A DNA stretch of 64,000 nt, taken from NCBI GenBank assembly GCA_014379595.1, contig JACMLM010000021.1, positions 1 to 64,000 of the forward strand. Direction: 5' to 3'. The translations under genes were made by a program, and so were the position numbers. Under the pieces are notes generated by a model, which worked only from the letters and a program-made list of their open reading frames with translations, searched no databases and was not told where the DNA came from. This document shows positions 21,793 to 59,096 of the stretch, piece after piece; within the stretch, counting starts at the first letter, position 1, and each line of letters starts with the position of its first letter. This stretch comes from Anaerolineales bacterium. GTDB taxonomy: Bacteria > Chloroflexota > Anaerolineae > Anaerolineales > Villigracilaceae.

Positions 21793-23868
21793 ATGACAAT
21801 GCAAGATATACGTGAGTTACCGCTGATTGACTTAGGAGTCAAAAAGACTCGTTCAGTTTGCGGTTATTGCGGCGTGGGTTGTTCATTGGATATTTTAACG
21901 AAGGACAATCACATCGTTGGCATACAACCGGCGATGGATGGCCCAGCCAACCTCGGCGCGTTATGCGTCAAGGGACAATTCGCCTACGACTATGTCAGCC
22001 ATCCTGATCGTTTGAAACATCCACTTGTGCGCCGCGAAGATGGTCAACTGCATGAGACCACTTGGGAAGATGCATTGCAAGTCGCAGCCGATGGCTTTCA
22101 TAAAGTCACCCAGAAATATGGACGTGATGCAGTGTACGGAATCGCCAGCGGACGCACTCCCACCGAAGCCGATTACCTGATGCAGAAATTCATCCGTGCT
22201 GGCTTTGGTACACACAATATAGATAACTGTTCGCGTGCCTGACACGCTCCAACTGTCGCCGGTCTGGCGGCAACGATGGGACGTGGTGCCATGTCAAATC
22301 CATTATCCGATATGGAAAAAGCGGATGTGTATTTCTGCATCGGCACAAATATGACGGAATGTCATCCAGTAGCTGCCACGCGTATGAAGAAATCGCTCGC
22401 TCGCGGCTCGAAGCTGATCGTCGCCGATCCGCGTTATATCAAGCTGGCAGAGTTATCACATATATATCTGCCGTTGCGTGTTGGAACTGATGTTGCTTTA
22501 CTCCTTGGTATGGCTCACGTCATTGTGCGCGAGAATTTAATTGACAAAAAATTCGTTGCTGAACGTACAACTGGCATTGACGAATATATTGAGCACGTTA
22601 AAAATTTCACTCCTGAATGGGCTTCTGAAATTACAGGCGTGCCAGGAATCGATATTGAAAAAGCTGCGATTATGTATGGGGCGGCAGACAAAGCATCCAT
22701 TTACTACACACTCGGAATCACTGAACACATCTGTGGTGTGGATAATGTCCAAAGCTTGAGCAATCTCGCATTAATGACGGGCCACCTCGGGCGCGAAGGA
22801 TGCGGAATTAATCCGCTTCGTGGACAAAACAATATTCAAGGTGCTGGTGATGCAGGTGCTGCGCCAAGTGAATATCCTGGTTATCAAACGGTTACTAAAC
22901 CAGAGAATCGTGACAAGTTCCAAAAATTATATGGTCGTGAAATGGATCCTGACCGTGGTATCACCAAAGTCACGGCGTTAGAAATGTGTGGCAAGGGAAT
23001 CCATGCCATGTTGATTGATGGTGAAAACACTTTAGTATCTGACCCAGACCGTGTCCATGGTGAACATGCCTTGCGCAGTTTGGATCATTTGGTCGTGATT
23101 GATATCTTCTTAACTGAAACCGCCGAATTAGCAGATGTTGTTTTGCCAGCCGCATCCTGGGCTGAAGCGGATGGTACTTTTACAAATACAGAACGCCGCA
23201 TCCAAAGACTTCGTGCAGCAGTAACATCACCCGGCGAAGCCAAACCTGATTGGTGGATTCTCAGTGCGCTTGCCAATGCAATGAGCATCCCAGGCTTTGA
23301 ATATGATTCTGCCAAAGAAGTCTTCAACGAATTATGTGATGTCGCTCCGATTTATGCAGGTGTAGATTGGGACATGATCGATAGTGGTCAATATCAATGG
23401 CCCGTTCCATATAAAGGTCACCCTGGCACACCACGTTTGCATGAAGATGGTTTTATGAATGGCAAAGCAATCTTTAAAGTGATTGGCTATCGTGATCCCG
23501 CCGAAGTCGTGGATGATGAATATCCTGTTTGGTTAACCACGGGACGACGCTTGCAAACTTATCACACACGTACGCAAACCGGTCGCTCGGCTGGTATTGA
23601 ATATTTCGTGCCAGAAGAATTGCTCGAAGTGAATCCAGAGAATGTTGAAAAGTGGGGTCTCACCGACGGAGGCTGGGCAAAAGTCACCAGTAGAAGAGGC
23701 GAGATTCGCGTCAAAGTAAAATCTACGCCGCGTTCTCCAAAAGGTACAGTCTTCGCCAGTTTCAGTTTTGCTGAAACGCCCGTCAATGTTTTGACAGGTT
23801 CAGGATATGACCCAACTACACACACAGCAGAGTTAAAAGTTTGTACTGTCCGTGTTGAACCAGCATAA
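21793..23868 (+). CDS. fdhF: Selenocysteine-containing molybdopterin formate dehydrogenase, catalytic subunit
   Basis: 691 aa when the in-frame TGA at 22240-22242 is read as selenocysteine (residue 150). The motif is D-N-C-S-R-A-U-H-A-P-T-V-A-G-L, the canonical active site of Sec formate dehydrogenases. Translation continues without interruption to a TAA at 23866. Cys 23, 26, 30 and 58 bind the [4Fe-4S] cluster; the molybdopterin and C-terminal dinucleotide-binding domains follow in normal order. A bSECIS-like hairpin begins 11 bases after the TGA. The enzyme interconverts formate and CO2. AAAGGAG precedes the ATG. Without recoding this would look like two broken ORFs (21793-22242; 22276-23868). 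Confidence 0.95.
22240..22272 (+). promoter_or_regulatory. In-frame UGA (Sec) plus bSECIS hairpin in fdhF
   Basis: After UGA at 22240-22242 come 11 bases, then a seven-base-pair stem, TGTCGCC (22254-22260) with GGCGGCA (22266-22272). The apical loop GGTCT is the same loop sequence I recall for the E. coli fdhF SECIS. Spacing and loop fit SelB recognition. Confidence 0.85.
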
Positions 23869-54477: not shown

Positions 54478-56091
54478 ATGAAAACCAATCCAAACAAACT
54501 CTGGATCATCGTCTTTGCCCTCGGCTGGCTCTTTGATTACCTATTTTGGAAACAAGCTTTTGGAGTCAATTTTGCAATTTTTGCGATGGCTTGTCTAACC
54601 GCTGCCTTTTATCTGTTATTGAGTGACGGGCTTCGCCCGAATCGCACCAGCCTGATCCTGCTTCCATTATTTGGCTTTTTCGCCGCTGTCACCTTTATCC
54701 GCGCTGAACCTCTTACTACTTTCCTCGCCTTTACATTTACACTTCTTGTAATGACCTTGCTCGCCTTTACCTATCTTGGCGGGCGCTGGTATTTGTATAC
54801 AGTGGCAGATTATGTAGCGAAGTCTTTAAAGTTATTTGGCAGTATGCTTGTACGGCCAATTACTTTTATAACTGACTTTCATAAGCAGCAAACAGAGGCA
54901 GGGATTCAACCAGCCAAACAGAATATATGGCCCGTAGTGCGGGGAATCGTCATTGCATTACCTATAATTGCCATCTTCGCATCCTTGCTTGCTTCAGCAG
55001 ATGTGATCTTCGGTCAACGGCTCGAAGATTTTATTGACTGGTTCAATATTGACAACATCCCCGAATTGATCTTTCGTCTCGTTTATATCGTTGTTATTGG
55101 ATATGGACTCGCAGGCGTTGTACTCCATGCTTCCACAGAATCAAAAGATGAAAAACTTGCTAATGAAGATAAGCCCTTAGTCCCGCCCTTTCTTGGCTAC
55201 GTAGAATCAACAATTATATTGGGGAGTGTAGTTGCACTTTTCGCGGCATTTGTAGTGGTTCAATTCCAATATTTTTTTGGTGGTACTACCAACATTCATA
55301 TTGACGGATATACCTACGCTGAATATGCCCGCCGCGGATTTGGGGAATTAGTCACAGTGGCATTCTTTGCATTGCTTATGCTTCTCACGTTAACTGCCAT
55401 CACTAGGCGCGAAACTGAAATCCAACGCCGAATCTATTCAGGGTTGGGAGTTACGCTTGTTGCCTTTTTACTGGTCATGCTTGTTTCGGCGTATCAGCGG
55501 CTCGGTTTGTATGAAGCGGTATATGGATTTTCGCGTCTTCGCACGTATACACACGTCTTTCTGATCTGGATCGGTTTGCTTCTGATCGTAACCATTGCGC
55601 TTGAGATCCTTCGCAAAGAACGCATGTTTATGTTTGCGGCGTTGATCGCTTCGTTTGGCTTTGCAATGTCACTGCCCATTTTGAATGTGGATGCATTTAT
55701 CGTAAATCAAAATATTCAACGTGAAATATTTGTTCAATCTGGTGACACGTTGACCCGAAGCAGCGATGTAGAACTGGATGCAGCATACTTTTTAGATCTC
55801 TCTGATGACGCAGTTCCGCCGTTAGTCAAAGCGTATCAGTCTACCGCTTTATCTGATTCAGTCCGAGAGAAGATTGGTGCGTCGTTGGCATGCATCAACT
55901 ACGAACGTAAACTAAATGATAGTGAACTGACGTGGCAATCTTTTCATCTAGCACGTCTCAATGCAGATAATGCACTGGCTTCCGTAAAGAATGAAATTAA
56001 AGGATTTATAATCGATGACACTAGCTGGCCTGTAATGGTTACAACACCTTCTCAAGAAGATTTTTCCTGTTCGCCATATTATTATGATTAA
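54478..56091 (+). CDS. DUF4153 (DUF4173-type) membrane protein
   Basis: 537 aa. About ten hydrophobic spans fill the first 410 residues. The diagnostic stretch Y-T-Y-A-E-Y-A-R-R-G-F-G-E-L (about 280-293) and R-L-G-L-Y-E-A-V-Y-G-F-S-R-L-R-T-Y-T (about 340-357) match the DUF4153 family. The extracytoplasmic C-terminal tail (about 415-537) is soluble. Function unknown. TAGGAGAAA precedes the ATG. Followed by a hairpin and the DinB gene. Confidence 0.85.
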   Translation: MKTNPNKLWIIVFALGWLFDYLFWKQAFGVNFAIFAMACLTAAFYLLLSDGLRPNRTSLILLPLFGFFAAVTFIRAEPLTTFLAFTFTLLVMTLLAFTYLGGRWYLYTVADYVAKSLKLFGSMLVRPITFITDFHKQQTEAGIQPAKQNIWPVVRGIVIALPIIAIFASLLASADVIFGQRLEDFIDWFNIDNIPELIFRLVYIVVIGYGLAGVVLHASTESKDEKLANEDKPLVPPFLGYVESTIILGSVVALFAAFVVVQFQYFFGGTTNIHIDGYTYAEYARRGFGELVTVAFFALLMLLTLTAITRRETEIQRRIYSGLGVTLVAFLLVMLVSAYQRLGLYEAVYGFSRLRTYTHVFLIWIGLLLIVTIALEILRKERMFMFAALIASFGFAMSLPILNVDAFIVNQNIQREIFVQSGDTLTRSSDVELDAAYFLDLSDDAVPPLVKAYQSTALSDSVREKIGASLACINYERKLNDSELTWQSFHLARLNADNALASVKNEIKGFIIDDTSWPVMVTTPSQEDFSCSPYYYD

Positions 56092-56840: not shown

Positions 56841-57446
56841 ATGGATTTCAAACTGACCATCTTCTCTGACTATATATGACCATGGTGCTATGTTGGCCAG
56901 GGTGTGGTCGACTTACTGAAAGCTGAATACAAAGTGGACGTCGAATGGCGTCCGTTCTATCTGCGGCCTGATACTCCGCCAGAAGGCCTGGATTTACCTG
57001 ATTACATTCTTCGTGCGCGTGCCAGCGGCGCGGATGAACGATTGAGTGATATGGCAAAAATGCACGGCATGAAGTTTGCGTCTACCGAGAGAATCTATAA
57101 CACACGCATTGCGCATGAAGCCACAGAATATGCCCGTGAACATGGCAAAGTGAATGAATTCCATCGCGTAGTTTTTCGCAAAGTCTATGCTGATGGACAA
57201 GACCCCAGCAAATGGGAAACCTTACGCTCCGTGGCTGAAGAAGTTGGCTTGGACTCAGATGATATGCAGAATGTTGTAGATAGCGGAAAATACACTGCCG
57301 AAGTGGCGGAACAAGTTCGTCATGCGCAGGAAATCCGTGTAACAGGTGTGCCAACTTATGTGATCAATGATCGTTATGCAGTCGTCGGTGCACAACCTTA
57401 TGAGGTCTTTAAGAGGGCCTTGGCACAGATATTGAAAAGAGAGTAA
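56841..57446 (+). CDS. Selenocysteine DsbA/FrnE-like oxidoreductase with U-P-W-C active site
   Basis: 201 aa when the in-frame TGA at 56877-56879 is read as selenocysteine (residue 13). Translation begins at ATG 56841 (AAGGA upstream) with F-S-D-Y-I-U-P-W-C-Y, in place of the usual S-D-Y-x-C-P-W-C of this DsbA subfamily. The rest is the thioredoxin fold with its helical insertion and the cis-Pro loop V-T-G-V-P-T-Y (near 168-174). A bSECIS-like hairpin begins 12 bases after the TGA. No signal peptide, so it is probably cytoplasmic, like FrnE and 2-hydroxychromene-2-carboxylate isomerase relatives. Without recoding only a GTG-started 180-aa fragment from 56904 would be called. Confidence 0.88.
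56877..56912 (+). promoter_or_regulatory. In-frame UGA (Sec) plus bSECIS-like hairpin in the DsbA-like gene
   Basis: UGA at 56877-56879, 12-base spacer, stem GTTGGCC (56892-56898) with GGTCGAC (56906-56912) including two G-U pairs, and a seven-base loop AGGGTGT. Position and size match the fdhF element in this window. Confidence 0.7.
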
Positions 57447-57585: not shown

Positions 57586-58365
57586 ATGGATGATTTATTT
57601 CAACAAGGCATAACAGCTTATAAAGCAGGAAGGCGGGATGAGGCGCGAAAAATTTTTATAACTGTTGCTGAGCAAAACCCAGATAACGAACGTGCTTGGA
57701 TGTGGATGTACAATGTTTGTAATACTGACAAAGGGCGTATTCATTGTTTAAAGCAAATTTTACGTATTAATCCCAAAGATAAAAAAGCCAATCAGCTTTT
57801 CAAACAATTAACCGCTTCTAAGCCGATGTCAAGCTCGGGCGGAGTAGCGCGTAAAGCAACCATTTTTATCAGTATTGCATCAGTCAGTTTAATTAGTGTC
57901 TGTTGTATTGGCTATCTTTTTTTCAGGGATAAAAACGCAATCTCATCAACATCAACTATTGAAGCGCCAATACCTATCGAGAAAATAATTGAATTGACAA
58001 TTTCTGCAGCTGACGCACAAACTGCTGCGTCATATAGCCCTATGCCATTGTCCACTTTAACACTCGTTCCATCCATAGAAAATGTTCCAACGGCCACAAT
58101 ATTTATTTTCCAACTTCAAACCAACGCGGCACAATCAACAGAATATATTTATTCAACCAATACGCCTTTTTCTTTGGCAACGCAACCGCCATCGACACTA
58201 CAATCCGCAGTTTGTTCATGCTCTGGCGATACTCGCAATTGTGGAGATTTCAGCACACAGTCAGGAGCGCAGGCCTGTTACAATTATTGCGTTTCTCTTG
58301 GGAGAAAAGATGTACACGGCCTTGACGGAGATGGAAACGGTTCTGCTTGTGAGAGCCTGCCTTAA
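57586..58365 (+). CDS. Membrane protein: N-terminal TPR, C-terminal Excalibur-like domain
   Basis: 259 aa. Residues 1-75 form a TPR-like pair (I-T-A-Y-K-A-G-R-R-D-E-A-R-K-I-F). One span lies at about 90-112, so the TPR part is cytoplasmic. A Ser/Thr/Pro-rich linker leads to a Cys-rich C-terminus (about 210-259) that ends D-G-D-G-N-G-S-A-C-E, the signature of the Excalibur calcium-binding domain. The next gene is a paralogue with the same N-terminus. The function is unknown. Confidence 0.78.
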   Translation: MDDLFQQGITAYKAGRRDEARKIFITVAEQNPDNERAWMWMYNVCNTDKGRIHCLKQILRINPKDKKANQLFKQLTASKPMSSSGGVARKATIFISIASVSLISVCCIGYLFFRDKNAISSTSTIEAPIPIEKIIELTISAADAQTAASYSPMPLSTLTLVPSIENVPTATIFIFQLQTNAAQSTEYIYSTNTPFSLATQPPSTLQSAVCSCSGDTRNCGDFSTQSGAQACYNYCVSLGRKDVHGLDGDGNGSACESLP

Positions 58366-58391: not shown

Positions 58392-59096
58392 ATGGATGAA
58401 CTACTTCAACAAGGTATAACAGCGTATAAAGCAGGGAAACGGGATGAAGCACGTAAAATTTTTATAACCGTTGTAAAGCAAAGCCCAAATAGTGAATCTG
58501 CTTGGGGTTGGATGTATCAAGTTTCAAATAATGATCAAGAGCGAACTCATTGCCTAAAACAAATATTACGAATAAATCCCAAGAGTGAAAAAGCAAAACA
58601 ATTGTTAGATACCATCACGCGCAATGATTTTCCATTTGAACCCTTACAAACACAAAAAAATATTGTGACACCAGTTGCCCAAACTGAAAAGACCACTATC
58701 TCTCAAAAGATACCTAACCCAAACCAACAAACAAATACAATCCTTGCAATAGGCGCAATTTTATTCGTTTGCTTTCTTTGCATTTTTATATATTTTTCGG
58801 GAAGCGATGGCAATCCAATCGGAGGCAGAATCGTTAAGTATGTTGTTACGGGCAACACTAACACCTCATCCATATCTTATACTAATGAAACAGGTGGAGA
58901 TAATAGTATTGAAGCAAATTTACCCTTTCAAAAAGAAATCACTTTAAAAGATGCGGGCTTTGTGTCAATTTTGGCATGGCCTGGCGGAAGTGATCTTACA
59001 GGAACAATAACTTGCGAAGTATGGGTAAATGGAAAGCTGGAAGAGACAACTACCGCCAATAACACGTTGGTTACTTGCGGTGCTTACGTCCCTTGA
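58392..59096 (+). CDS. Membrane protein: N-terminal TPR, C-terminal beta domain (paralogue of previous gene)
   Basis: 234 aa. The first 65 residues are nearly the same as those of the preceding gene (Q-Q-G-I-T-A-Y-K-A-G; K-Q-I-L-R-I-N-P-K). One span lies at about 115-137. The extracytoplasmic end (150-234) reads as a beta sandwich with V-V-T-G-N-T-N-T-S-S-I-S and C-E-V-W-V-N-G-K. So the N-terminal module was duplicated and joined to different outside domains. Both genes share the GGGAGCGTTTT leader before the ATG. Confidence 0.75.
   Translation: MDELLQQGITAYKAGKRDEARKIFITVVKQSPNSESAWGWMYQVSNNDQERTHCLKQILRINPKSEKAKQLLDTITRNDFPFEPLQTQKNIVTPVAQTEKTTISQKIPNPNQQTNTILAIGAILFVCFLCIFIYFSGSDGNPIGGRIVKYVVTGNTNTSSISYTNETGGDNSIEANLPFQKEITLKDAGFVSILAWPGGSDLTGTITCEVWVNGKLEETTTANNTLVTCGAYVP

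Follow-up and report, generated by a model that had tools for sequence, protein, structure and literature searches.

A gene seemingly broken by a stop codon very probably encodes a complete selenocysteine-containing redox enzyme in an Anaerolineales bacterium

The locus and its reading frame

The window, as the whole stretch of 64,000 nucleotides analysed here is called, carries on its forward strand a gene (56841..57446), denoted Sec-FrnE, that starts with ATG, ends with TAA and, when read through an in-frame TGA, encodes a DsbA-fold oxidoreductase of 201 residues, MDFKLTIFSDYI-U-PWCYVGQ... The TGA (56877..56879, + strand) is codon 13 and the sole internal stop of the frame. It occupies the place of the first cysteine in a D-Y-I-C-P-W-C active site and is read here as selenocysteine, U13, giving U-P-W-C. 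The second active-site residue, Cys16 (codon 56886..56888, +), is invariant in 43 aligned proteins, as is Pro171 in the motif TGVPT (codon 57351..57353, +); the latter is expected to face the active site as a cis-proline, presumably the one of the thioredoxin fold. U13 and C16 are the only Sec or Cys residues of the protein, and the chemistry must therefore involve this pair. Under the standard code the gene yields a 180-residue open reading frame from the GTG at 56904, which is without the active site; the enzyme would thus be missed by annotation that does not consider Sec decoding. An earlier reading of this DNA from its sequence only had noticed that a TGA stands where the motif has its first Cys, that an intact thioredoxin-fold protein runs from there to a normal stop, and that routine annotation would miss or truncate the gene. 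All three points hold, with the stop being the TAA that ends at 57446.

A second selenoprotein gene in the window, which the same reading had adduced as mutual support, is real: it is the formate dehydrogenase alpha gene at 21793..23868 (+), scoring 764 bits with TIGR01591 against a cut-off of 666.25. Its in-frame TGA (22240-22242, in NCSRAUHAPTVAGL) is at the usual Sec position and is followed by a hairpin with the loop GGUCU.

Closer to Sec-FrnE lies a DUF4153 gene (54478..56091, +). Of 66 loci (window included, many of them short or cut), 24 have a relative of this gene just upstream of Sec-FrnE in the same orientation, which makes DUF4153 the commonest neighbour; that it is a functional neighbour is only possible. 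In the window a DinB-family gene is placed between the two. The DinB and TPR neighbours of the window have no match at E 1e-4 in the other 65 loci, and for that reason no operon is proposed from the window. Other neighbour groups are found in 9-18 loci each, some of them apparently frames that overlap real genes. The two open reading frames at 57586-58365 and 58392-59096 (+) have similar N-terminal TPR-like segments (MDxLxQQGITAYKAGxRDEARKIFITV) and are unlike downstream; judging by these segments, they may perhaps be a tandem duplication.

Protein family and fold

The Pfam DSBA family (PF01323) matches residues 5-195 with an E-value of 6.7e-40 and 137.3 bits, against a cut-off of 25.6. The nearest sequences in the PDB are Deinococcus radiodurans FrnE (E 3.2e-26) and Streptomyces SCO1869 (1.2e-18). 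An AlphaFold2 model, in which Sec was given as Cys, has a pLDDT of 96.2, and its five best PDB matches are Deinococcus FrnE entries, followed by SCO1869 and then HCCA isomerase, with kappa GST among the next. The N-terminus has no hydrophobic leader by eye, and in the model a beta strand begins at residue 4. No NCBIfam model, including for example NF041057 (Rcas_1661 selenolipoprotein), scored above its cut-off, the best match reaching 41.1 bits against 190.

The fold is common to HCCA isomerase (2imd, TM 0.79) and kappa GST (1r4w, TM 0.76), and a Sec protein that acts on small molecules, or in the manner of these enzymes, rather than on protein disulfides would be compatible with it. However, FrnE and SCO1869 are the better matches in both sequence and fold, and the U/C-x-x-C pair, a mark of thiol/disulfide exchange, is present; we know of no such pair in HCCA isomerase or kappa GST. 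We therefore regard the isomerase-like reading as unlikely. It is highly probable that the product of the gene is a thiol/disulfide oxidoreductase of the FrnE type with selenocysteine in its active site.

TGA and cysteine codons among relatives

Judged by the Sec-FrnE gene, the closest named relatives are metagenome-assembled genomes of Anaerolineales (Chloroflexota). Relatives were collected in two ways. A scan of genome contigs with six search patterns, one of them with the Cys motif (DYICPWCY), matched 106 relatives, and 80 loci were kept. Within the same family, 152 genomes were searched at E <= 1e-50, and 72 of them, the host genome included, gave 75 matches; genome G142 was matched at both contig ends, probably in one gene. 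TGA is present in 70 of these 75 matches and absent from the other five; at the site itself, which was read in 70 of the 75 (the window, L168 and 68 other loci), there are 65 Sec and 5 Cys codons. On this comparison of sequences the TGA is beyond chance.

A motif script run over all fetched loci returned 146 genes (109 TGA, 28 TGC and 9 TGT), a number that contains duplicates because the two collections have genomes in common, and one that cannot reveal other residues because only U or C was sought. Counted as distinct genes, and with the window included, there are 101, namely 68 Sec (TGA) and 33 Cys forms. Four loci without the motif are outside the script's counts: L092 is a Sec form cut by a contig end, L051 begins past the site, L097 is partial, and L168, read apart from the script, is a Sec variant with U-S-W-C. 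Inspection of the site in 78 loci, with no motif required, gave no codon other than TGA, TGC or TGT. The Cys/Sec exchange that the sequence-only reading had suggested looking for is thus found, and it comes without frame disruption.

The residues ahead of the TGA (1-12) are conserved among homologues. Over the 43 aligned proteins, a set that excludes L168 (S in place of P14), the invariant positions are D10, Y11, position 13, P14, C16, Y17, G49 and P171. In 20 of the 68 distinct Sec genes TGA is also the gene's own stop codon, so UGA is not generally reassigned.

Several observations concern the spread of the family. Two distant Chloroflexota homologues, L068 and L077 (40% and 36% identity), lie outside the main clade and have TGA at the site, in U-P-Y-C and U-P-W-C, respectively. 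Genome G147 holds two Sec-FrnE sequence types, L147 and L166 (MDFK...DYIUPWC and DQIK...DYVUPWC), and genome G123 also has two matches (C99 and C120), the second at 60% identity. Three relatives sit in bins labelled Planctomycetota (L051), Acidobacteria (L056) and Kiritimatiellae (L063); since L056 is identical to L057, a Chloroflexi locus, over the length compared, its misbinning is likely. A tblastn search of plasmids with Sec-FrnE gave 812 records, every one below 60% identity, and a scan of viral contigs for the Sec motif gave no match.

A conserved hairpin downstream of the UGA

A hairpin 12 bases past the TGA, reported by the sequence-only reading as bSECIS-like, is real. It lies at 56892..56912 (+), with an 8-bp stem in the window (arms 56892-56899 and 56905-56912), a conserved 6-bp core (56894-56899/56905-56910) and a 5-nt loop, GGGUG, at 56900-56904; it starts 12 nt past the UGA, and the gap from UGA to loop is 20 nt. 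In a recent description the bSECIS model comprises a loop of 3-9 nt with a G in its first two positions, a stem of 4-16 bp and a UGA distance of mostly 16-37 nt (summary in PMC13188914), and the Sec-FrnE hairpin, with a stem of 6-8 bp, agrees in each of these. The nine Cys forms compared below likewise have the loop G, which alone does not discriminate Sec from Cys forms. Rfam showed nothing relevant in 1001 bases around the gene, with one chance match at E 3.5.

The single hairpin was rejected as evidence, since the folding of these 55 nt of the window, taken singly, does not surpass that of dinucleotide shuffles (z 0.39), of which 125 in 200 were at least as good. The case is made by the comparison of genes. 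All six core pairs are kept in 63 of the 63 distinct Sec forms with the motif PWCYVGQ, while in a null of 200 synonymous resamplings 4.1 of the 63 do so on average and never more than 9; the mean energy of the hairpin is -10.7 kcal/mol in the Sec forms against -4.5 (sd 0.29) in the null. Among the nine Cys forms with PWCYVGQ a single one (L062) keeps all six pairs, against a null mean of 0.3, and the mean energy of -5.3 kcal/mol is near their own null of -4.6 (sd 0.76). These counts apply to the rows with PWCYVGQ and do not cover two distant Sec forms, L068 and L077, or the 24 distant Cys forms.

The strongest synonymous constraint in the gene falls on codons that underlie the hairpin. Residues 18-23 reach a mean modal-codon share of 0.96 in the Sec forms, as compared with 0.61 (sd 0.14) for the other codons of 86 conserved degenerate ones; when six-codon windows are ranked by codon constancy, residues 17-22 and 18-23 take the first two places among 81. 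The core is identical in 52 of the 63 Sec forms. Nine others differ by a single one-sided change from G-C to G-U, the basal pair of the window is U-G, and L049 has a two-sided change from C-G to U-A. As the stem hardly varies, covariation is of little help and the structural case is mainly one of synonymous constraint.

Selenocysteine machinery and the decoding of the UGA

The host genome of the window (4.47 Mb, 95% complete) contains tRNA-Sec (64.6 bits against a gathering threshold of 47; ARAGORN anticodon tca), selA (550.6 bits), selB (342.4 bits) and selD (345.1 bits), which is the full set that the sequence-only reading had proposed to look for. The selD gene (L098, C15:121516-122448) has itself an in-frame TGA, in CAGUASK, and is of the Sec-type selenophosphate synthetases. 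Of the 152 genomes of the family, 141 have a match to selA and 130 one to tRNA-Sec; among the 67 that have the Sec form of the gene, the numbers are 66 and 58. The one Sec-form genome in which selA was not found is G108 (92% complete). With stricter filters, tRNA-Sec was not found at E <= 1e-9 in nine of the 67 (G101, G102, G116, G126, G145, G150, G027, G032 and G093; completeness 71-96%), G093 being counted through its absence from the match rows. These are likely to be gaps of draft assemblies.

Could the UGA be decoded as something else, by a reassigned code (Trp, Gly), or by simple stop read-through or suppression? The openness of the frame, taken alone, is compatible with this. Yet TGA is the own stop of 20 of the 68 distinct Sec genes; the genome carries tRNA-Sec, selA, selB and a selD that itself contains a TGA; the site holds TGA, TGC or TGT and nothing else in 78 loci, which were found partly through the DYICPWCY pattern; and a conserved hairpin would have no role in plain read-through. 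Such a decoding is hardly credible. Still less so is the view that the TGA truly is a stop, be it the result of a nonsense mutation or a sequencing error or the mark of a pseudogene, which leaves at most the truncated protein from GTG 56904 offered by the standard reading. Against it, 70 of the 75 family matches, which come from many assemblies, contain a TGA, and the 12 residues preceding it are conserved. The truncated frame lacks an active site that does not vary among 43 aligned proteins, and synonymous change downstream is strongly restricted in TGA forms and far less so in Cys forms.

The selenocysteine oxidoreductase proposed by the sequence-only reading is therefore supported, by the Sec genes of the genome, by the Cys/Sec exchange and by a conserved hairpin that fits the bSECIS model. 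The protein may be cytoplasmic, as that reading also proposed. The seemingly stop-broken gene very probably makes a complete redox enzyme, with UGA read as selenocysteine. Comparison of the sequences shows that the UGA is retained for coding, together with its own hairpin directly downstream, in an organism that has the bacterial Sec apparatus.

Exchange of selenocysteine and cysteine

A quick, unrooted tree of 100 homologues (the short L085 was left out), built with the active-site residue excluded, gives at least 8 Sec/Cys changes, of which 6 are forced by starred branches. Long branches meet in this tree, so its deep parts are unsure. Sec and Cys thus appear to have been swapped repeatedly in FrnE-type homologues, the forced changes being at least 6. 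Within Anaerolineales the Cys forms L019, L025, L093 and the pair L038/L154 are nested among Sec forms. This nesting favours a change from Sec to Cys; as no root is assigned, the direction is one that we infer.

The origin of the Cys forms through loss of the Sec machinery was considered and rejected. Four of the five Cys-form family genomes (G103, G119, G130 and G131) retain selA and tRNA-Sec, and the change to Cys needs no such loss; in the fifth, G115 (53% complete), neither was found.

We give about even odds to the composite picture of an Anaerolineales Sec-FrnE clade with two types, in which Sec and Cys were swapped several times while the machinery was retained, and for which DUF4153 is a possible partner. 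If true, the clade would be a natural experiment on why an enzyme retains selenium. Close relatives have exchanged Sec and Cys repeatedly while keeping the Sec machinery, and eight of nine Cys forms have lost the hairpin, so that a comparison of orthologues of about 80% identity could test what advantage selenium gives under selection.

Proposed mechanism

In the mechanism that we propose, SelB carrying Sec-tRNA-Sec would bind the hairpin and insert Sec at residue 13. Sec13 would then be the nucleophile, its selenolate attacking a disulfide or another oxidised thiol of a substrate that is presumed to be cytoplasmic. Cys16 would resolve the mixed bond, leaving a Sec13-Cys16 selenenylsulfide, which thioredoxin with thioredoxin reductase, or a small thiol, could re-reduce. 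To our knowledge, FrnE activity has been described from Cys proteins only. By analogy with Deinococcus FrnE, a role in disulfide repair or isomerisation under oxidative or metal stress is probable.

Comparison with known proteins

Selenoproteins of the DsbA-like/FrnE kind are a known family, a point absent from the sequence-only reading. We take COG2761 to be the FrnE group.

One known relative is D. radiodurans FrnE (DR_0659; 5cnw, 5co3, 5cp1, 5coh, 5xwh), which has the same fold over about 200 residues (TM 0.85-0.90) at 28-29% identity. Its C-P-W-C aligns with the U-P-W-C of Sec-FrnE, so that Cys stands where Sec-FrnE has Sec. The Deinococcus chain is longer (260 residues) and, as given in the relevant sections of PMC8945050, bears an extra C-terminal CXXXXC that is missing in Sec-FrnE. 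According to the same sections, FrnE is predicted to be cytoplasmic, isomerises disulfides and reduces insulin in vitro, and its mutant is sensitive to cadmium and diamide. The CXXXXC is proposed there to serve in regeneration and is present in many but not all FrnE proteins, those of S. roseofulvus and D. maricopensis being without it (PMC8945050). Recycling of Sec-FrnE may accordingly differ from that of the Deinococcus protein.

FrnE/DsbA is also a eukaryotic selenoprotein, noted in green algae, sea squirts and marine invertebrates (passages in PMC6627142, PMC2874816, PMC3965025 and PMC3473315). As far as these passages go, it is likewise a Sec DsbA/FrnE oxidoreductase with U-x-x-C, but its SECIS is in the 3' UTR, whereas that of Sec-FrnE is a bSECIS in the coding region. 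For Asgard archaea, two DsbA-like selenoproteins are mentioned in Lokiarchaeia/Helarchaeales (PMC11227280, in part); they are of the same type, but are made by the archaeal Sec system. The three Lokiarchaeota homologues in our collection (L070, L073 and L075) all have Cys at the site.

Of the same kind are the bacterial DsbA-like U-x-x-C selenoproteins of COG2761, reported in 2005 from the Sargasso Sea (PMC1088965). Bacterial genomes yielded four of them in a count of 2006 (PMC1794560), and 45, from 41 organisms, were counted in 2016 (PMC5029168); a 2026 review names a 'DsbA-like protein form 1', PF01323 UxxC (PMC13188914). In the portions of these sources that treat the family, it resembles Sec-FrnE in the PF01323 domain, in having Sec first in U-x-x-C, in its widespread Cys homologues and in a predicted bSECIS past the UGA. 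The kind has therefore been in print since 2005, and Sec-FrnE adds to it. The clade found here is concentrated in Anaerolineales, which may set it apart from the Sargasso sequences.

Among open-access hits, which were examined in part, no report of the Sec-FrnE family in Chloroflexota was found. The passages on selenocysteine in Anaerolineae in PMC4959059, PMC5736913 and PMC7117926 deal with Sec formate dehydrogenase, in the first case from single cells of Anaerolineales, with no DsbA/FrnE. Sec-FrnE as found here is a well-supported new branch of a known selenoprotein kind, and it adds a redox selenoprotein to a Chloroflexota group that is known, in the parts of the papers examined, for Sec formate dehydrogenase only.
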